From: a virus
Strand: one strand, 5' to 3'
DNA: 64,000 bases
Virus record (IMG/VR): IMGVR_UViG_3300025849_000018
Coordinates: 1-64,000 of that record
In this document: piece by piece, positions 190 through 23,603 of the stretch
Position numbering within the stretch: position 1 is the first letter of the stretch
Layout: every line of letters starts with the position of its first letter
Translations under genes and position numbers: made by a program
Notes under the pieces: generated by a model
The model's input: only the letters and a program-made list of their open reading frames with translations
Told to the model about the DNA's origin: nothing
The model's database searches: none

Positions 190-2756
190 CTAAAAAAGTC
201 CTCCAGATTATTTTGTTGTTCTGCGCTCCATCCGATTACCGACAATATGATGTTCATCGGATCGAGATAACCTTTCTCAAACTGCGTATCGTAATCGATG
301 TATTGTTCAAGTCCGAATTCTTTCGGCAATTCACCTGTAGATGCGATTACTTTGTCGCGCAATGGATTTGGTAGTTTTAGATAACAAAACTTAATTTTCT
401 CACCATCTTTTATCTCTTCATATTTTTTAGTGAGACCATGTTTATTTAGTAGATGATTATACAGCAACACACCCTTGACCTGTATCGGTGATCCCTTTCG
501 ATAGATCGTATTCTTGTCAGCATAGGATTCAGAATATCTACGGCCATCACTGGATGTTTTCCATGCTGTCAGACTAACACCGCGAGGAAACGCAACCTTG
601 TCAAATTCAAGTGTGTTAAATTCTTCATGAATTTTACTGATAAAATTTTGCGTGGTCTTTTCATCAGAGTTCATAATCAACTTGAGTGTTTGTTTAATAT
701 ACTCACGGATCACCGACGGTGTTGAAGAACGTATTGCTTCAATGCCCATCATCTTGAGTTTGGGTTCATTGTATCGAACACCCTCGCTGTCCCAGACATT
801 CATGATGTATCGTTTCTTGGCAGTCCAGATCGCCTTGTCGCCAATGTTCTCGCGCTTCATAATCATCTTCTGATCATATGCATTCATGTAGTCTTTCAGT
901 TCTAGGTAAGATTTATCGATGAATGGTTCAATCTTCTCACTGGCAATCTTATCAAGAAAGTCGACGGGATTATCAGGTAGAACACGTTTAACCATTTCAT
1001 CAAAACAAATATAGACCGAGTCAGTATCAACTGCGACAACATAATCTTTCTCAGTGCCAAGGACTTTGTTAAGATACTCGTTGATTCGTTTTTCAATCCA
1101 ACGAATAGATAACTGACCAGACATCGTGATTGCTTCAGCATTCTTTTGTTCGAACCAACGGAAGTATTTGTTAGCGATGGCTCCGTAGGCAGAGTTCAGT
1201 AGAATCTTGAGAGCATATTGCATATTATGACTGCGGGATATCTCTCGCTCTAAGTCTGGCGTTGGGTTCTTTTGATATTCCTGTTGCGCTAATATCATTT
1301 TCTTTTTGTAGTTGACCCTATCGTTATACATGTTCTGCATTAAGACAGACAGAAAACCCTGTTTATCTTTGCGGTAGAAATTGCCGTTGGGTGTGACAGT
1401 GAGATTGCTCTCCTTCAGTTTTGATGTATCAATAGATTTATTAAGAAAAGATTCAACGCTAGATTTTGCAGCAATATCACCGAGATTGAATACATTTCTT
1501 CCTTGTTCGCGAGTATCGGGTGAAACATTATATTGCATAATTAGGTGAGGGTACAAACTGTTCAGGTCAAACGACATCACCCATTCGTGCATACCAACTT
1601 GCGGTTCTTTCACGAACCCGCCAACAATCTGACCAACATCATTGTTATATGGTTTCTTTGTTGGAATGACTATGTTCTGATCCATCAGATAGTTGTGTAT
1701 AATCGTGTCCCAAATCTTGAGAGTTGATAAACCATCTTCGTAGTTACAACCCGAATCATAAGTCAAAGCAAAGATCACATTTATAAAACCGAGTTGCTCT
1801 TCAAGCATAAAGATCAAATCAACATCTTTGATATTGTATTCAATAAATTTCTGATAGTCCTCTTTGTATAACGTATAAAGATTACCGTGTTCTGAGTAGT
1901 CAATCTTTTTCTCACCGAGTTCAAGTTCACAAATATAATCAAGGCGATAAGATTCTCTGGGTTGTAACTGAAACTTTTTATACACTGCCATGTAGTCTAG
2001 ATTAGCAATGCCATGTAGTTCGTAACCCTGACTCTTCTTTGTGCCTAAGGTAATGTTATACTCGCGAATCTTTCCCCACGGCGACAATCGACGAACATGA
2101 TCCTCACCGAGTAGTTTGCGAATCCGATTCACAAGATAAGGTATATCAAAGAACTCGGTGTTCCAACCAGTCAGCGCGTCAATATCAAACCCTTCCCAAG
2201 CCTTTAGAAACTTGCGAAGGAGTTGTATTTCATTCTCACACTTGAGATAGTAAACATTCTTATCATCTGTTACGAAGTCGCCGCAACCAATCACGACAGT
2301 CATGTTTCGTCGCTTGAGTGTAATCGCAGTGACTTCTTTTTCTGCCACGCCAGGTTCGGGGAATCCATCATCAGACGCCACCTCGATATCGAGTGCGACA
2401 ATGTTGATCTTGCTGGTGTCAGGTTTAATGTTCTTATAGTTATCGTAGATATAAGTATAGGCGAATCTATCGTAACCATAGATAGACATACCGTCGACAT
2501 TATCATATTTTTTTATAAAATCTTTTGCATCGTATATGCTTTTGATTGAACTGACTGGTTGAACCGGATTGTTATGTATGTCCGTGTAACCTGTCACATG
2601 TGTCGATGGTGTGAACATCATCGGTTCATAAGTGTACTGTTTCTGTACTCTCTCACCATTCTCATCAAAACCACGAAGATAAATATGATTACCATGGTTG
2701 AATACATTTGTGTAGAATGGTGAGAACTGTTCATCTCGGACAACGGATTTCTTCAT
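186..2756 (-). CDS. gp43: Family B DNA polymerase gp43
   Basis: Replicative DNA polymerase with 3'-5' exonuclease of T4-like phages, about 856 aa, close to T4 gp43 (898 aa). Visible motifs in order: an exonuclease motif DIEVASDDGFPEPG (about residue 120), polymerase motif A SFDLNSLYPHLI, motif B KILLNSAYGAIANKY and motif C VDTDSVY with the catalytic aspartates. The frame extends to a TTG at 2768, but GGAG lies just inside it at the right distance for the ATG at 2756, so 2756 is chosen. A promoter (2781-2809) lies directly upstream. It works with the gp44/62/45 clamp system further along the same strand. Confidence 0.98.
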   Translation of the reverse strand: MKKSVVRDEQFSPFYTNVFNHGNHIYLRGFDENGERVQKQYTYEPMMFTPSTHVTGYTDIHNNPVQPVSSIKSIYDAKDFIKKYDNVDGMSIYGYDRFAYTYIYDNYKNIKPDTSKINIVALDIEVASDDGFPEPGVAEKEVTAITLKRRNMTVVIGCGDFVTDDKNVYYLKCENEIQLLRKFLKAWEGFDIDALTGWNTEFFDIPYLVNRIRKLLGEDHVRRLSPWGKIREYNITLGTKKSQGYELHGIANLDYMAVYKKFQLQPRESYRLDYICELELGEKKIDYSEHGNLYTLYKEDYQKFIEYNIKDVDLIFMLEEQLGFINVIFALTYDSGCNYEDGLSTLKIWDTIIHNYLMDQNIVIPTKKPYNNDVGQIVGGFVKEPQVGMHEWVMSFDLNSLYPHLIMQYNVSPDTREQGRNVFNLGDIAAKSSVESFLNKSIDTSKLKESNLTVTPNGNFYRKDKQGFLSVLMQNMYNDRVNYKKKMILAQQEYQKNPTPDLEREISRSHNMQYALKILLNSAYGAIANKYFRWFEQKNAEAITMSGQLSIRWIEKRINEYLNKVLGTEKDYVVAVDTDSVYICFDEMVKRVLPDNPVDFLDKIASEKIEPFIDKSYLELKDYMNAYDQKMIMKRENIGDKAIWTAKKRYIMNVWDSEGVRYNEPKLKMMGIEAIRSSTPSVIREYIKQTLKLIMNSDEKTTQNFISKIHEEFNTLEFDKVAFPRGVSLTAWKTSSDGRRYSESYADKNTIYRKGSPIQVKGVLLYNHLLNKHGLTKKYEEIKDGEKIKFCYLKLPNPLRDKVIASTGELPKEFGLEQYIDYDTQFEKGYLDPMNIILSVIGWSAEQQNNLEDFFR

Positions 2757-4330: not shown

Positions 4331-4406
4331 TGGTGCCGCCACAAGGAATCGAACCTTGGACCTGATGCTTACAAGGCAACTGCTCTACCTGCTGAGCTAT
4401 AGCGGC
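4331..4406 (-). tRNA. tRNA-Thr (TGT)
   Basis: 76 nt including an encoded CCA. Acceptor stem GCCGCTA/TGGCGGC with one G-U pair, D arm AGCTCAGCAGGTAGAGC, anticodon loop CTTGTAA (anticodon TGT, U33) and T arm CAAGG-TTCGATT-CCTTG are all canonical. The anticodon stem has one T-T mismatch. The anticodon matches ACA codons, which are frequent in AT-rich phage genes. It lies next to a broken second tRNA. Confidence 0.93.
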
Positions 4407-4926: not shown

Positions 4927-6255
4927 TTACCTTCCTACTTCTTGTAAATATTTTTCTTTTGTTTGTTCCCAGTCCATAAAGATCAGATCGTCATAGTAAA
5001 GCGTTTCGTCAGATACACGATCATTCTTAATGAGACTTTTAATACGTTTGCTGGCATACTTATTCTTCCACAACTCCGTCAAATATTCGGTGCTTGTGTC
5101 AAAGAGAGGACGTAATTCAGACTGTTGACATTCTCCTCGCAAAAATTCTCTTGTGTTATCATACAATGGTGAGAAGTAAATACCGCGGGCATGTTCAGCG
5201 CTAATCAAGGTCTTGTCGATGCCAAGTTTACTGTATGTAAAATGATACGACCGGTTACGGTGATCGCGTTTTGCAGGTTGCCCTGATGGTTTGATTGCGC
5301 CATACCACTCGAAGTATTTGTATGTATGGTTTTTGTGCAACCAACTACGCATCAAATACTGTGTTTTTTTGGTCGCTTGATATGCAACACTACCTGAACT
5401 ATAACCCATTTTCTTCCAGTGTTTCAGATTATCATATTGCGATAGGCCACCCTGTTTTGTTTTACCGTAGAGTGAGGTTGTTGTAACTCCAACCAATGTA
5501 TCGCCATACTGACTTTTCCAATCATTCTGTATAGTATCAGACAAACACAGAAGAGCGAGCAACTTACCGCCAACATAGTTAAAACCCAGTGGTTGAGTTG
5601 GCACAATAGTCGAACCAATGGCCGTATAGTTGATCATATGTCCTTGAGTTTTCTTTTCACGTTCCCAACCAATCCACTTGTCACGCGGTGTAAGATCAAG
5701 GAAGTCGGATGATATACAGATCACACCAAGATACGTTTCTGTCACTTCATCAATCACAAGATAGTTTAGATTGCGACCTATGTTCGCTGAGTTTTTCATT
5801 GTCGAGGTAAAGGTACGAATTGCATTCCACTTTTCAGGTGTATTCGTTTTATTTGATGTCAAGATGAGTTTCGGAGTCAGTTTCGCATAACTTTCTAAAT
5901 TATCTGGTCGCCAGATGTTATCTCTCATCTCTTCAACAATCTTTGCGCGAGACGCATCGCAAAGTTGACTTTCAGGACCCCATAAGGTTTGTACTTCCCG
6001 AGTGGGATATTTGATATGCACTTCTTCCCACTTCTGGTAAAGTATATATTCACCGACAGTCATTTGCGACACATGTGCCAAGTCTTTAACGAGAGCATCT
6101 TTTAGCTCTTCATCGGAGACATCTTTTATTTCTTCGGGGGGATTTTTCTTTATCCAGATTTTATATTGATCTTCAATCGGTAGATGTGCATAGTCAGACA
6201 TTCTAACACATTCTTTTTCCGACGAAGCTTCTATACCTAGAAGAGATGTAAACAT
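4927..6255 (-). CDS. DUF4338 (DruA-like) protein
   Basis: 442 aa. The middle (about residues 180-300) resembles DUF4338, the domain of the Druantia defence protein DruA: RDKWIGWE, then a TAIGSTIVP block, GGKLLALLCLSD, DWKSQYGDTLVG and a WKKMGYSSGS segment. The assignment rests on remembered family patterns. The biochemical activity of the family is not known to me. The N- and C-terminal parts are not recognised. The start at 6255 has a weak GGAAAG site; an internal ATG at 6201 has none. The gene is flanked by 77-bp direct repeats, and its last codons recur in a scar at 4245, which suggests mobility or recombination. Alternative: an unrelated phage enzyme. Confidence 0.6.
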   Translation of the reverse strand: MFTSLLGIEASSEKECVRMSDYAHLPIEDQYKIWIKKNPPEEIKDVSDEELKDALVKDLAHVSQMTVGEYILYQKWEEVHIKYPTREVQTLWGPESQLCDASRAKIVEEMRDNIWRPDNLESYAKLTPKLILTSNKTNTPEKWNAIRTFTSTMKNSANIGRNLNYLVIDEVTETYLGVICISSDFLDLTPRDKWIGWEREKKTQGHMINYTAIGSTIVPTQPLGFNYVGGKLLALLCLSDTIQNDWKSQYGDTLVGVTTTSLYGKTKQGGLSQYDNLKHWKKMGYSSGSVAYQATKKTQYLMRSWLHKNHTYKYFEWYGAIKPSGQPAKRDHRNRSYHFTYSKLGIDKTLISAEHARGIYFSPLYDNTREFLRGECQQSELRPLFDTSTEYLTELWKNKYASKRIKSLIKNDRVSDETLYYDDLIFMDWEQTKEKYLQEVGR

Positions 6256-6287
6256 AACTTACTTTCCATTATATAATGATAATCAGT

Positions 6288-6497
6288 TCAGACGTAGTAA
6301 TGCCACGCGGTACTGGAGATTTCTTCTTCAATGTAACAGTCTGCACTAATGTTTTGTTTCGCCCAATGTAGTTCATTGATCATGCGATTATACCACTGCC
6401 GGTCATACTCCGAATGACACTTGGCAGCGTCCTTCTTTAGTTGACTAATCCTCATATCAAGATATTTGGATACATCTGGTTTTCTGTTTCTACGCAT
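6288..6497 (-). CDS. Small basic/acidic helical protein, unknown function
   Basis: 69 aa, beginning MRRNRKPDVSKYLDMRISQL, with a central YDRQWYNRMINELHWAKQ. Its ATG overlaps the end of the cytidylyltransferase gene (ATGCGTAG). A fragment of its 3' part (DCYIEEEI) is found in the scar at 4275-4299, where it continues into YLQEVGR rather than SSTAWHYYV. The present C-terminus may therefore be secondary. Confidence 0.65.
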   Translation of the reverse strand: MRRNRKPDVSKYLDMRISQLKKDAAKCHSEYDRQWYNRMINELHWAKQNISADCYIEEEISSTAWHYYV

Positions 6498-7326: not shown

Positions 7327-8571
7327 TTACTCACATATTTGTAAAGTATTGTCTTCAACACCTTCCTTGGACTTGAGAGTGAAATCGTTTTTAAGGAGTG
7401 TCGAATCGGATTGTTCGTTTATTTTACTATAGGTCATCCGTGTTCTGTTCATACTCTCAACCGCATTGGATTTATCAGTACCGTTATTATATATCAATCC
7501 TGATTCTGGATGTTCCCAAGTTATATCCGGAGAACTAAAGAAATTTGTGTCACGGTCAGCATAACTCATAATGCTACCATATCCTTCGAAGTCGGTATCA
7601 ATAGTTTCAGGTATAATCCATCCATACGAGTAATTATACTGTCCGGATTTTCTCGATTGCGGACTATATTGATCGCGGTCGTGCATCATTCCCAAGTTGT
7701 GTCCAACCTCGTGTGAGAATGTAATATTACCTCGATCATCGGGAATGCGATTATCTCTCTGATAACACTGTATGAATCCTTTGCTATACTGTCGTTCCAG
7801 TCGGTTATTGATCCAGGCTGCGCCACAAATTGTTGATGGTCTTGGTTCAGCAAAGATGTATGCCAAGTCAGCGTCATATTCATTCATATCGCTATCGACG
7901 GGTTCATACCAAAGATTTGACTCGTCGGGATCACGAAAGTCTTCGAGAAGTTCTATTACATCTCTTTCTGGATCAATTTCAGTTTCAATGTATGCAATAG
8001 CATTCAGATTGACATAAACACCACTCGCGGCATACAACTTGTTTGCCGCATCAAACTCTCTGTCAATTAACTCCTGATACGAACTTACACCTCTTTTTTC
8101 AAGGTCGAGATTGATGTCAATGTATACCAGAATATCTATTTGTGCAATCTCAGTGCTTTCTGGATTGTAGATGAAATTAATCGGGGTTCGTTGAGGTTGA
8201 CCATCACAATTTATATAGTTGAAGAAATCGTTATCCTCATCAATCACAGTTTTTGAGTATTCGCTCTCACATACTGTCTGTTCTAACCAAAGATTAGGAT
8301 CATCTGGATATACATCCTCTTCGTCATTATATCCATCACCATCGGTATCAGGTATGTAACCACATTCCGTGCTATTTGTTTCTATCAAATTGATTTCAAC
8401 AGTGCCATCACTGTATGTAACTTTCCGCAACAAATCAAATGAATCATCATCACAATACTGTGCATCACTCACAATGGTGACGGGCGCAGGACCGCTTGAC
8501 CCTCCGCCACACGCAACTAAAAAACATAATAAAAAAAGAAAACAATTTTTACTCTTCTGAAAATTGTCCAT
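7327..8571 (-). CDS. Lipoprotein metzincin-type zinc metalloprotease
   Basis: 414 aa. Residues 1-21 are a lipoprotein signal (core FLFLLCFL, lipobox LVAC, Cys21), followed by a Gly/Ser linker. Residues about 75-92 hold a calcium-binding DTDGDGYNDEEDVYPDDP of thrombospondin type 3 style. The catalytic HExxHxxGxxHD is at 287-298 (HEVGHNLGMMHD), with a Met-turn SIMSY at about 333-337. Together these define a metzincin (M12-like) protease. It would be lipid-anchored outside the inner membrane, its target unknown. It overlaps the upstream gene by 23 bp and precedes a membrane protein gene. A promoter at 9116-9144 serves the pair. Confidence 0.88.
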   Translation of the reverse strand: MDNFQKSKNCFLFLLCFLVACGGGSSGPAPVTIVSDAQYCDDDSFDLLRKVTYSDGTVEINLIETNSTECGYIPDTDGDGYNDEEDVYPDDPNLWLEQTVCESEYSKTVIDEDNDFFNYINCDGQPQRTPINFIYNPESTEIAQIDILVYIDINLDLEKRGVSSYQELIDREFDAANKLYAASGVYVNLNAIAYIETEIDPERDVIELLEDFRDPDESNLWYEPVDSDMNEYDADLAYIFAEPRPSTICGAAWINNRLERQYSKGFIQCYQRDNRIPDDRGNITFSHEVGHNLGMMHDRDQYSPQSRKSGQYNYSYGWIIPETIDTDFEGYGSIMSYADRDTNFFSSPDITWEHPESGLIYNNGTDKSNAVESMNRTRMTYSKINEQSDSTLLKNDFTLKSKEGVEDNTLQICE

Positions 8572-11515: not shown

Positions 11516-11814
11516 TTGTTTTTACCGTCTCCACTTGAACTGGTATATAACCCAAACCACGCGGCACCGGTGCCGACAATAATGCTGATCAATCCCGACT
11601 GTTCAATAGTTGGATTTTCGAGGTTCATAAACCACATGGTCGAATAATACAATAAGAAGGTGTATACACCTAGGAAAACTCTGGGAAATATTCTCCAAGC
11701 GTCCACTGCTTTGGCTAAGTCAATCCAATTCTGCCATTGATTCTGGCTACTGTCTACAGTCTTCGTATCAACTTCTAGTTGAATCTGTAATGTCCTTTTT
11801 TCTATATCCGACAT
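11512..11814 (-). CDS. Two-span membrane protein, holin-like
   Basis: 100 aa. A soluble helical N-terminus (about 38 aa) is followed by two transmembrane helices (FLGVYTFLLYYSTMWFMNL, about 47-65, and IIVGTGAAWFGLYTS, about 78-92) and a short charged tail GDGKNK. The size, the short charged tail and the AAWFGLY helix resemble putative holins of marine phages, which would form the inner-membrane lesion for lysis. It is far from the lysozyme gene, as in T4. Other small membrane proteins cannot be excluded. Confidence 0.5.
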   Translation of the reverse strand: MSDIEKRTLQIQLEVDTKTVDSSQNQWQNWIDLAKAVDAWRIFPRVFLGVYTFLLYYSTMWFMNLENPTIEQSGLISIIVGTGAAWFGLYTSSSGDGKNK

Positions 11815-11854
11815 AAGTGACCTTCAAAATTTATTTTTATTGTAATATTTGAAT

Positions 11855-12155
11855 AGGTGCCACACTTTGATAACAAGGCAGTGGCCTCCTCGGAAGATTA
11901 TGCCGCTAGGGCTATATCTCCATAGTAGTTGTCATTTGCAGCAACTATAGTTTTGAACCACCGTTTTTACAGTCAGCGTTCATGGACTGATTCTCCACAT
12001 TGCTTTCGGTTGCCCGTCGATTCCGTAACGCCCCCATCAAAAGTACACTACCCGCTTTATCAGATACGTTCCAGACTTAACTGGAATAGTGTACTTTTGG
12101 TGGAGGCGGCGGGAGTTGAACCCGCGTCCGCACTTCCTATTTACAATGTTTCATC
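11855..12155 (-). ncRNA. ssrA: Circularly permuted (two-piece) tmRNA
   Basis: Gene order on the minus strand is acceptor piece, intervening loop, coding piece, as in alphaproteobacterial permuted tmRNAs. The acceptor piece ends GGACGCGGGTTCAACTCCCGCCGCCTCCACCA-like at 12098 (T arm and CCA; given here by position 12098-12129). The coding piece starts GGGGGCG at 12035 and its seven bases pair with CGCCTCC of the acceptor. CAATGT (11997-12002) pairs with ACATTG (12144-12149) as helix P2. The tag frame 11942-11898 reads AANDNYYGDIALAA and stop, typical of tags ending LAA. It would rescue stalled ribosomes and mark proteins for proteolysis. Outer ends are approximate. Confidence 0.93.
12039..12098 (-). 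other. tmRNA intervening hairpin (processing site)
   Basis: A perfect 12-bp inverted repeat (AAAAGTACACTA at one end, TAGTGTACTTTT at the other) closes the segment between the acceptor and coding pieces, with an inner TTCCAG/CTGGAA hairpin. It would bring the CCA end next to the coding 5' end and is probably cut out in maturation. Confidence 0.8.
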
Positions 12156-12164
12156 GAATAACTT

Positions 12165-12172
12165 TATTTATA
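12165..12172 (-). promoter_or_regulatory. T4-type late promoter before the tmRNA
   Basis: Exact TATAAATA on the minus strand, 4 nt beyond the zincin stop and about 15 nt before the acceptor piece. It suggests gp55-dependent late expression of the tmRNA. Confidence 0.55.
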
Positions 12173-12175
12173 GTA

Positions 12176-12628
12176 TTAGAGTTTCATTACTTCATCAGCA
12201 TACACATACTGATATTTATGAGCCTCAACTTCCCAAGGCAGATCAAAATAATCAACCTTCTGCGAATCGATTCGTCGTCCTTTCCAGTTACATACATCCA
12301 ACATTGTTACCAAATCCCGAAGTTCACCTCGGGCATATTGTTTGACATGGATCATCTCATGAACGATCGTGGCAACGAAGTCGCGATTGGACAACTTGGT
12401 GTCCACACGAATCTCGAAATCGCGGGGCAATCTATTCTCACAGTCGATATAGTTACAGTCGCCATGTATACCCTCTCGATCCTCAAGACTTGCGTCACCC
12501 AGTATTTTGACCGACAAAGATTTTGCCATGCGCGGCATCATTTTAGAAACATAAAAATCAATAGTCTCGAATGCCAGTTTCTTCTGTGCCTTTGATAACT
12601 TGCGATATCTTTTTTCGGTCAGTATCAT
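12176..12628 (-). CDS. SprT-like zincin metallopeptidase
   Basis: 150 aa from the ATG at 12628, which has AAGGA upstream and overlaps the previous stop (TAATG). The zinc motif is VHEMIHVKQYARGEL (HExxH, about residue 98), followed by a third ligand region PWEVEAHKYQ. This is the plan of SprT/M48-like small zincins found in phages. The substrate is unknown. The fold is small and cytosolic, with no signal sequence, unlike the metzincin upstream in the window. Confidence 0.75.
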   Translation of the reverse strand: MILTEKRYRKLSKAQKKLAFETIDFYVSKMMPRMAKSLSVKILGDASLEDREGIHGDCNYIDCENRLPRDFEIRVDTKLSNRDFVATIVHEMIHVKQYARGELRDLVTMLDVCNWKGRRIDSQKVDYFDLPWEVEAHKYQYVYADEVMKL

Positions 12629-18611: not shown

Positions 18612-19574
18612 TTACTTCTTTTTACCAAGTTTTGATGGGTCAGCAGTTGCCGCCGCACCGACAGAGGCGAGATGCGCGAGCGATCCACCAAATATGTAAG
18701 AACCAACATGTTTCAGTTCCATCCAAGGGCACAGCCAAACTTTCATACCCATTCGTTGTACGTTGTAACAGAACATATAATCTTCAGATAAGTATCTGTT
18801 GGAATATTCCTTACGATCTATACCATAACGTTTATCGGCGAGAAAGTCAATAACTTCTTCTTTTGTAGGCGATTTATTTTTCTCATAGAATGCGGTGATC
18901 TCAGGTACAAGGTTCTGTGACTTGTCATCAATGAGTGCGTCAAAGTATGCCATGATCTCCCGCGTACCATCAAAGTTAGCAGTGCGAACATGATCTGGTT
19001 TGTAATAGAACTGTGGGTATGCTTCAGCATATGCCTCAAATGTTCTTCGTTGAATCATCATAAACCCTGTGCCGCCTTCTAATACTTCACAAGGTTCACC
19101 GATCTTAATGTTATTGCCTCCTGTTTTAGGATTGAATACATAGTCACCGACATAGTTCTCAAGTTGATTCGGATCATCATCAGCAGCACCGCGATCAACA
19201 GCAGCCTTAATCTTTTCCCAAGAGATAGTCTTTTTAGGATAAGGTCCACAGAGAACATTATAGTCTTCGTTCTGAACAGACATAGCTAACAACGCAATCA
19301 CATCATTGGCATTGAAACCAATATCGGAATCAATGAACATCATGTGAGTGCAATCGCTTCGCATAAACTCGTCGGCGCAATAGTTTCTTGCGCGAGTGAC
19401 CAGAGACTCGTTGAATAAGAAGTAAAACTGTAGTGGTATTTGATATTTCGCACACAACCCGGTCAAGTCCGCGATTGACCGAGTGAACATGCCGGCGCAT
19501 TGTCCTCCGTACATAGGTACAGCAAGAAATATTTTTTGATTTCTTAGTTCTTCAACTGGTACATTAATTTCCAT
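18612..19574 (-). CDS. GT-A fold (Anp1-like) glycosyltransferase
   Basis: 320 aa. The N-terminal half holds KIFLAVPMYGGQCAGMF, the region NESLVTRARNYCADEFM, and the DxD motif MMFIDSDIGF; the GGTGFMMIQRRTF and SEDYMFCYNVQRMG segments are typical of the same group. It would transfer a sugar to an unknown acceptor (DNA, protein or surface glycan). The C-terminus is Ala-rich. A promoter inside the deformylase gene (19814-19842) could drive it. It is similar to the last third of the 877-aa protein at 46527. Confidence 0.78.
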   Translation of the reverse strand: MEINVPVEELRNQKIFLAVPMYGGQCAGMFTRSIADLTGLCAKYQIPLQFYFLFNESLVTRARNYCADEFMRSDCTHMMFIDSDIGFNANDVIALLAMSVQNEDYNVLCGPYPKKTISWEKIKAAVDRGAADDDPNQLENYVGDYVFNPKTGGNNIKIGEPCEVLEGGTGFMMIQRRTFEAYAEAYPQFYYKPDHVRTANFDGTREIMAYFDALIDDKSQNLVPEITAFYEKNKSPTKEEVIDFLADKRYGIDRKEYSNRYLSEDYMFCYNVQRMGMKVWLCPWMELKHVGSYIFGGSLAHLASVGAAATADPSKLGKKK

Positions 19575-20109
19575 GTATCGTTCCTTGTAGAGATTTTATA
19601 AGTTTATCTTGTTTCTTCAGCTTTCGCTTAATCATTTTGGTTTTGTGTTTTGCCTTTTCAAGATTATATTTGCTCGCACGAGTCAGATACATGTTGCCAT
19701 CTAAATGATCGATCTCGTGTTGAAAGGCTCTTGAAACAACACCATCAAATCCGTGGGTTCGTATTTCGTTATGTTCGTCTACGAACCTCGCTCTTATAAT
19801 TTCTGATCTTCTTATTCTAACAAACAGAAGAGGGAATGTCAAGCAAGTTTCATTCATTACTGCCGATTCTTCTGAATAATATGTAATCTTTGGATTAAAA
19901 CATATCATTACAGGATCGGTGTTGATAGCAAACACTCTATAAGGAAGTCCGATCTGATTCGCAGAAAGTCCTACACCTTTCCAATCGCCAAGAGCGGTCT
20001 TCAGTTTTTCTGCTATCTCTACAGGGTCTTCGGGAGGATTATTGAAATCGAAAGTTTCAATCTTCGTGTGAAGGTGGGGATGGTTCGGTTTCAGGAGTTT
20101 CATAGTCAT
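19564..20109 (-). CDS. def: Peptide deformylase
   Basis: 181 aa. Motif 1 is GVGLSANQIG, motif 2 is ETCLTFP (usually EGCLS; the Cys is kept), and motif 3 is QHEIDHLDG with the HExxH metal site. It removes the formyl group from new proteins; phage versions are known in marine phages. The C-terminal 25 residues are a Lys-rich tail. It overlaps the upstream gene by 53 bp, so the second ATG at 20103 is also possible. Confidence 0.93.
   Translation of the reverse strand: MTMKLLKPNHPHLHTKIETFDFNNPPEDPVEIAEKLKTALGDWKGVGLSANQIGLPYRVFAINTDPVMICFNPKITYYSEESAVMNETCLTFPLLFVRIRRSEIIRARFVDEHNEIRTHGFDGVVSRAFQHEIDHLDGNMYLTRASKYNLEKAKHKTKMIKRKLKKQDKLIKSLQGTIHGN
19814..19842 (-). promoter_or_regulatory. Sigma70-type promoter inside the deformylase gene
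   Basis: Minus strand TTGACA (19837-19842), 17 nt, TAGAAT (19814-19819). It would transcribe the glycosyltransferase and gp45. Confidence 0.55.
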
Positions 20110-23087: not shown

Positions 23088-23603
23088 TTAGTCCTTAACA
23101 AATTTCTCGACCCCCTTAGGCGCGACATCTTTCTTCGGTTTTTTCTTCTCATACTTCTGTATGATTGGTTGCATCTTCTCATTCTGAATGTCAAAATTGG
23201 CGAACGGGTTTCCTTCTTCTTCTGACATATCACACTCAAGCATAAATGCCTCTAAAGATTTATATTTGATATAAGTTTGTTTCTTCTCTTTTTCAATGCG
23301 ACGAAGAAACGCATACCAAATAATTTGCGTGAAGTAAGCAAAAGGATTCTTAGATTTCTCAGGATTAAAACTATGGACTGCGTTCACACAGTTCTCAATC
23401 GCATCAGATACCATCTCGTCTTTGTAAGTGTAACCGACAAAGTTTCCTTTGTTTGAAAGTCTGGTAGAGATTAGAATAAATGCTTCACCTATCTTATTCG
23501 GTATCCTCGGCACCGGCTTATTTTCGGCCTTGGCAATTTCTGATGCCTCTTTGTATTCAATTAAGAGTTGATAGAATTCTTTGTTGTTAATATATTCCGC
23601 CAT
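23088..23603 (-). CDS. gp55: Late transcription sigma factor gp55
   Basis: 171 aa, close to T4 gp55 (185 aa). The core SDAIENCVNAVHSFNPEKSK and the following FAYFTQIIWYAFLRRIEKEK form the sigma region 2 that recognises TATAAATA late promoters. Such promoters are found in this window before structural genes and the tmRNA. Confidence 0.96.
   Translation of the reverse strand: MAEYINNKEFYQLLIEYKEASEIAKAENKPVPRIPNKIGEAFILISTRLSNKGNFVGYTYKDEMVSDAIENCVNAVHSFNPEKSKNPFAYFTQIIWYAFLRRIEKEKKQTYIKYKSLEAFMLECDMSEEEGNPFANFDIQNEKMQPIIQKYEKKKPKKDVAPKGVEKFVKD

Follow-up and report, generated by a model that had tools for sequence, protein, structure and literature searches.

The minus strand of the window (the whole 64,000-nucleotide stretch analyzed here, taken from a 94,927-base IMG/VR fragment record) contains, from about position 12159 to 11859, a complete circularly permuted (two-piece) tmRNA gene of a T4-like phage, with a T4-type late promoter box immediately upstream. 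The best supported reading, to which we assign a probability of about 60%, is that this gene encodes a functional two-piece tmRNA of a T4-like phage lineage, transcribed late and involved in ribosome rescue that depends on host proteins. ARAGORN reports a permuted tmRNA at 11807-12190 of the window, with the tag AANDNYYGDIALAA, and the RF04321 (tmRNA_permuted) model of Rfam matches at 12160-11898 over its full length (model positions 1-213) with 94.6 bits (E = 4.9e-17), well above the curated cut-off of 47 bits. The sole other weighty Rfam matches, obtained under permissive settings, are the two halves of RF00023 (standard tmRNA), which appear in swapped order, as expected of a permuted gene. 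The gene belongs to the RF04321 class both by its score and by its order of parts, the tRNA-like 3' half with the CCA lying upstream of the 5' half and the tag frame. A circularly permuted tmRNA on this strand had been predicted from the sequence, and the elements then named (the CCA acceptor arm, a 12-bp stem, P2 and the tag) are all present, with ends within a few bases of those predicted. The parts of the gene are as follows.

12098..12159, minus strand: acceptor RNA (RF04321, ARAGORN, pair counts)
12159-12156 (ATTC) and 12148-12144 (CATTG), minus strand: 3' side of P2 within the acceptor RNA
12125-12109, minus strand: T arm
12108-12102, minus strand: acceptor 3' strand
12036..12097, minus strand: 62-nt intervening segment with predicted excision (sequence, compensatory changes)
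12098-12087 with 12050-12039, minus strand: closing stem of the intervening segment, 12 perfect pairs
11859..12035, minus strand: coding RNA, 3' end approximate (ARAGORN, RF04321, sequence, pair counts)
12035-12029, minus strand: acceptor 5' strand in the coding RNA
12002-11998 (CAATG) and 11993-11990 (GAAT), minus strand: 5' side of P2 in the coding RNA
11989-11970, minus strand: hairpin in the coding RNA
11947-11926, minus strand: resume hairpin
11898..11942, minus strand: tag frame AANDNYYGDIALAA with TAA stop (ARAGORN; tags of relatives)
11885-11859, minus strand: 3' hairpin of the coding RNA

The acceptor stem (GGGGGCG/CGCCTCC) forms all seven pairs, including G3-U70, the pair read by alanyl-tRNA synthetase; both the alanine identity and a tag frame closed by a TAA stop are present. 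The T arm is GCGGG-TTCAACT-CCCGC, the ACCA end is encoded at 12101-12098, and the two pieces are joined by the P2 pairings ATTC/GAAT and CATTG/CAATG. The stem of the intervening segment (AAAAGTACACTA/TAGTGTACTTTT) is perfect over 12 bp and leaves the two predicted cleavage sites within an ACC/GAU internal loop. The predicted fold of the gene lies 3.9 standard deviations below those of shuffled sequences.

This structure is conserved in other phages. Searching IMG/VR with two patterns, one describing the permuted arrangement and the other the tag, yielded additional loci. In a MAFFT alignment of eight distinct phage loci, standard pairs occupy 91.9% of the pair cells versus 39-53% when the partners are slid, a contrast that is favored by the definition of the helices from one of the eight sequences, that of the window. 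Changes on both sides are found in 25 of the 49 pairs (50 cells across the eight loci), compared to 13.2 in shuffles, none of 500 being as high, although this control does not preserve relatedness. Every tested helix has at least one compensatory pair (for example, all five in the 3' hairpin and 7 of the 11 pairs counted for the main block of the stem that closes the intervening segment); in the acceptor stem and P2, which connect the two pieces (helices 1, 2 and 4), 93.8-100% of the cells are paired, with two compensatory pairs each, and G3-U70 (a U-G pair) is invariant in all eight loci. Thus, the tested helices, the intervening stem included, are shared by seven other phage loci and show compensatory changes there. 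A chance match or a tRNA-like artifact is ruled out by the Rfam and ARAGORN results together with the covariation. The original prediction was to be abandoned if tmRNA models gave no match or if the pairing was not conserved in related phages; with a model match and conserved pairing both found, it stands in this respect. Comparable stems at the same offset are present in many bacterial permuted genes, and many bacterial genes whose tags are of the ANDNY type have a resume-codon hairpin; therefore, neither element is a phage invention.

The T4-like affiliation of the carrier, also part of the original prediction, was confirmed by PHROGs matches to core replication and virion families. These are gp43, gp44, gp62, gp45, gp46, gp47, a UvsW-type helicase, UvsY and gp55 as well as, among the virion and packaging families, gp17, gp18, gp19, gp20, gp22 and gp23. 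The matches include DNA polymerase (phrog_262, E = 1.5e-300), clamp loader subunits, the sliding clamp, SbcC- and SbcD-like subunits and UvsY along with the major head, scaffold, portal, tail sheath, tail tube and terminase proteins. Among named phages, Stenotrophomonas phage DLP6 has the closest gp23 gene (67.8%), ahead of Melnitz (62.2%), Mosig (61.9%) and phiN3 of Sinorhizobium (61.0%). Two features of the window bear on the timing of tmRNA expression.

12165..12172, minus strand: T4-type late promoter box TATAAATA, predicted start A12159 (enrichment, spacing, recurrence, gp55 homologue)
23088..23603, minus strand: homologue of gp55, the T4 late sigma factor (phrog_234, E = 7.4e-56)

The box at 12172-12165 is perfect and ends five bases before the first base of P2. 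In T4, the late box spans -13 to -6, which would place +1 at A12159, where the ATTC/GAAT helix begins; therefore, the predicted start coincides with the 5' end of the acceptor RNA. The window contains 14 copies of TATAAATA versus 4.2 expected (a number reached in none of 100 shuffles), 13 of the copies lying on the minus strand, where seven are located 18-74 nt before ORF starts; one copy lies 28 nt before the scaffold gene. No ORF of at least 60 amino acids starting on the minus strand was found within 350 nt after A12159, nor was a sigma-70-like site found upstream of the tmRNA gene on the same strand. T4 late promoters require gp55. The box, its placement and a gp55-type sigma factor are thus all present, and the transcription start is predicted from them.

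Boxes are located 4-11 bases upstream of the tmRNA in five other distinct phage loci. In L004 and L009, TATAAATA has the same spacing as in the window, and so does GATAAATA in L010; in L032, L006 and Melnitz, TATAAATA precedes the start of P2, as marked by eye, by 9, 6 and 11 nt, respectively. In L036, the box precedes a short pqqA-like ORF extending into the tmRNA, and no late box was found directly upstream of the tmRNA in L007, L034, L033, Mosig, HTVC008M and DLP6. The box at the 5' end of the tmRNA suggests late expression, contrary to the only published proposal on the subject. In PMC9004378, the authors placed the Melnitz tmRNA behind a predicted early promoter and proposed early use, whereby tagging by the tmRNA would direct host proteins to proteases and thereby return their amino acids to the phage. 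Melnitz indeed has a good sigma-70 promoter (TTGACA, 17 nt, TATAAA), but it overlaps the TATAAATA box of that phage, so that the early and late readings both fit there. In the window, the only promoter-like element directly upstream is the late box at the RNA end. Besides, tmRNA acts on stalled ribosomes rather than on finished proteins. Together, these considerations make a role in early host takeover unlikely. The placement of the box instead yields a testable statement on when phages use their tmRNA, one opposite to the early-tagging proposal.

With respect to the partners of the tmRNA, no SmpB was found in the 94,927-base record, a genome fragment, so that an SmpB gene may lie elsewhere in this phage, or in four complete tmRNA-bearing phages (Melnitz, Mosig, DLP6 and HTVC008M); therefore, the tmRNA most likely works with the SmpB, the alanyl-tRNA synthetase and the proteases of the host. 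Under this scenario, the late transcription apparatus of the phage would start at A12159 and produce a single precursor, from which host tRNA-processing enzymes would excise the 62-nt intervening segment at the exposed ACC/GAU internal loop, with the acceptor and coding RNAs staying joined through the acceptor stem and P2. The host alanyl-tRNA synthetase would charge the molecule via G3-U70, and host SmpB and EF-Tu would bring it to stalled ribosomes, where AANDNYYGDIALAA would be added to the nascent chains; the ends of the tag match the ordinary SspB/ClpXP degron, so that the tagged chains would probably pass to host proteases. Made late, such a tmRNA could free ribosomes and clear broken chains while the structural genes are being translated. 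The broader view, in which two-piece tmRNAs of a long-separate phage lineage became part of the T4 late program, the late promoter alone sets the 5' end of the acceptor RNA, and ribosome rescue starts at the same time as virion gene expression, via host proteins only, appears to us evenly balanced between right and wrong.

A different role would be to replace or redirect host trans-translation, for example, if the tag were read differently by a host protease or adaptor, or if the host tmRNA were inactivated during infection. The tag does differ from those of the sampled bacterial permuted genes, and YYGD is kept throughout the phage clade described below; however, AAND and LAA at the two ends constitute an ordinary degron, one-piece Pseudomonas tmRNAs share the tag pattern, and neither SspB nor SmpB was found in the record, so this alternative appears improbable. 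With the ordinary AAND...LAA degron retained in AANDNYYGDIALAA, supplementing host rescue is the simpler reading. Finally, although integration often occurs at ssrA and fragments of this gene are found in prophages (PMC11915505 and PMC9004378), it is highly improbable that the gene is a functionless passenger, that is, a host ssrA copy that merely travels with the phage or remains from a past integration, or a pseudogene, given that both halves, their pairing and the reading frame are intact, both-side changes fill 50 cells across the eight loci, the clade consists of phage genes only, and the gene is kept while the adjacent genes differ.

Locus L003 comes from nearly the same phage as the window and has an identical tag; 14-residue tags with YYGD and LAA are encoded in L004/L009, L007, L010, L032, L034/L035 and L036, and the tag of L033 is ANDDNYGDDRLAA. 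Some genes near the tmRNA are common to the window and several relatives, and those directly adjacent to it mostly differ.

The original prediction further held that the tmRNA points to the host lineage, and this part was not supported by comparison with bacterial genes, so that the interpretation as a whole is partly supported. RF04321 matches above the cut-off were obtained in 157 of the 398 genomes from the phylum of a Pseudomonas genome, and 90 of these loci were taken for comparison. Among the bacterial permuted loci that could be divided into their parts, nearly all carry the T loop GGCRGTA, whereas that of the window is the standard TTCAACT. A tmRNA tree was built from a short alignment (85 rows, 186 columns) in which permuted bacterial genes other than the alphaproteobacterial type (assigned from T loop and tags) are nearly absent, L050 apart, the betaproteobacterial ones being thin or absent and the cyanobacterial ones not included. 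In this tree, seven phage tmRNAs with YYGD tags, that of the window among them, form one clade (98/95), and 67 bacterial genes of the alphaproteobacterial type form another (97/96) that does not contain the window gene; a joint clade of the phage genes and the 67 bacterial ones is not rejected (p-AU 0.389). The window gene thus has neither the T loop nor the grouping of the alphaproteobacterial type, and because the phage clade lies outside the 67-gene clade, the tmRNA does not identify the host.

Nor does the tag. A scan of 84,980 species genomes with the relaxed pattern NDxxYGDxxLAA plus TAA returned nine loci, all of them one-piece Pseudomonas-type tmRNAs, so that the idea of a tag unique to phages has to be rejected in part. 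No close bacterial donor was found: blastn against 385 genomes of the class of genome G058 gave mainly generic T-arm matches, with one-piece genes accounting for four of the six best, and against phage and plasmid collections mainly short tRNA-like matches to enterobacterial ssrA. In the absence of a donor in these searches, the host is unreadable from the tmRNA. Published isolates mislead in the same way: according to PMC9004378, Melnitz infects OM43 yet carries an alphaproteobacteria-like tmRNA gene. These observations caution against inferring the host of a phage from its tmRNA.

Phage tmRNAs of this kind are already known, and the window gene adds to them; with two-piece tmRNAs of T4-like marine phages already published, the finding is less new than the original prediction assumed. 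According to PMC9004378 (2022), ARAGORN predicts two-piece tmRNAs 53 times among 18,146 phage genomes, with marine or aquatic samples accounting for 50, and 17 times among 47 Melnitz-like contigs; 79 unique phage tmRNA sequences are catalogued in PMC11915505. As in Melnitz, a Methylophilales phage, and the Pelagibacter phages Mosig and HTVC008M (Kyanoviridae, T4-like), the window has a permuted gene in a T4-like phage, an intervening stem that begins at the last A of the CCA and no SmpB gene found, and it shares with Melnitz the TATAAATA box just upstream. The tmRNAs of these three phages differ from that of the window in their tags (ANDNYVPVDYALAA, GEDNFALAA and ANFNEYALAA) and fall outside its clade, and the T loop of Melnitz is of the alphaproteobacterial type rather than the standard one. 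The alphaproteobacterial permuted tmRNA (the old Rfam alpha_tmRNA, now within RF04321) resembles the window gene in the permuted order, an ANDN-type tag, the offset of the intervening stem and the resume-codon hairpin (seen in many bacterial genes), but belongs to a separate clade, nearly always has GGCRGTA instead of TTCAACT in the T loop, and mostly scores 115-162 bits with RF04321 versus 94.6 for the window gene. The one-piece tmRNA of Pseudomonas protegens and its relatives has the same tag pattern (ANDETYGDYALAA) and a standard T loop; however, it is encoded by a standard, unpermuted gene.

The phage with the closest gp23, DLP6 (KU682439.2, locus L019), can be added as an isolate with a permuted tmRNA, located at 102838-103059 (136.8 bits) inside a tRNA cluster. 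It is not annotated in the record KU682439.2, and the DLP6 paper does not mention a tmRNA, although the 53 phage tmRNAs of PMC9004378 may already include it. DLP6 is likewise a T4-like phage with a standard T loop in its tmRNA, but the tag is ANDDSFAPMAIAA, the intervening segment comprises 31 nt, no late box lies directly upstream, and, unlike the window gene, this tmRNA groups with a bacterial gene of another type.

Several further observations concern the surroundings of these genes. In L036 (~2131-2205, minus strand) and L007 (~6262-6335, minus strand), a PqqA-like ORF of 23-24 residues (PF08042, cut-off 21.1; 37.3 and 41.9 bits, respectively) enters the 5' end of the tmRNA, its stop codon being inside the conserved ATTCGATGA. 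The PqqA-like pattern is found in 47 viral contigs, in nine of which PqqE was sought and not found, and it does not occur in the record of the window. A tRNA-Thr (tgt) gene at 4331-4406 of the window (minus strand) is the sole tRNA gene detected anywhere in the record; the same tRNA also occurs in L036, close to the tmRNA, and in L153, a contig that bears pqqA. Other minus-strand genes of the window encode a protein matching DruA of the Druantia defense system (4927-6255; PF14236, 84.8 bits, cut-off 27), a phage peptide deformylase (19564-20109; phrog_2890, E = 3.3e-33) and a reprolysin-like metallopeptidase (7327-8571; PF13688, 46.4 bits, cut-off 27), a homologue of which (26% identity) adjoins the tmRNA in L010.
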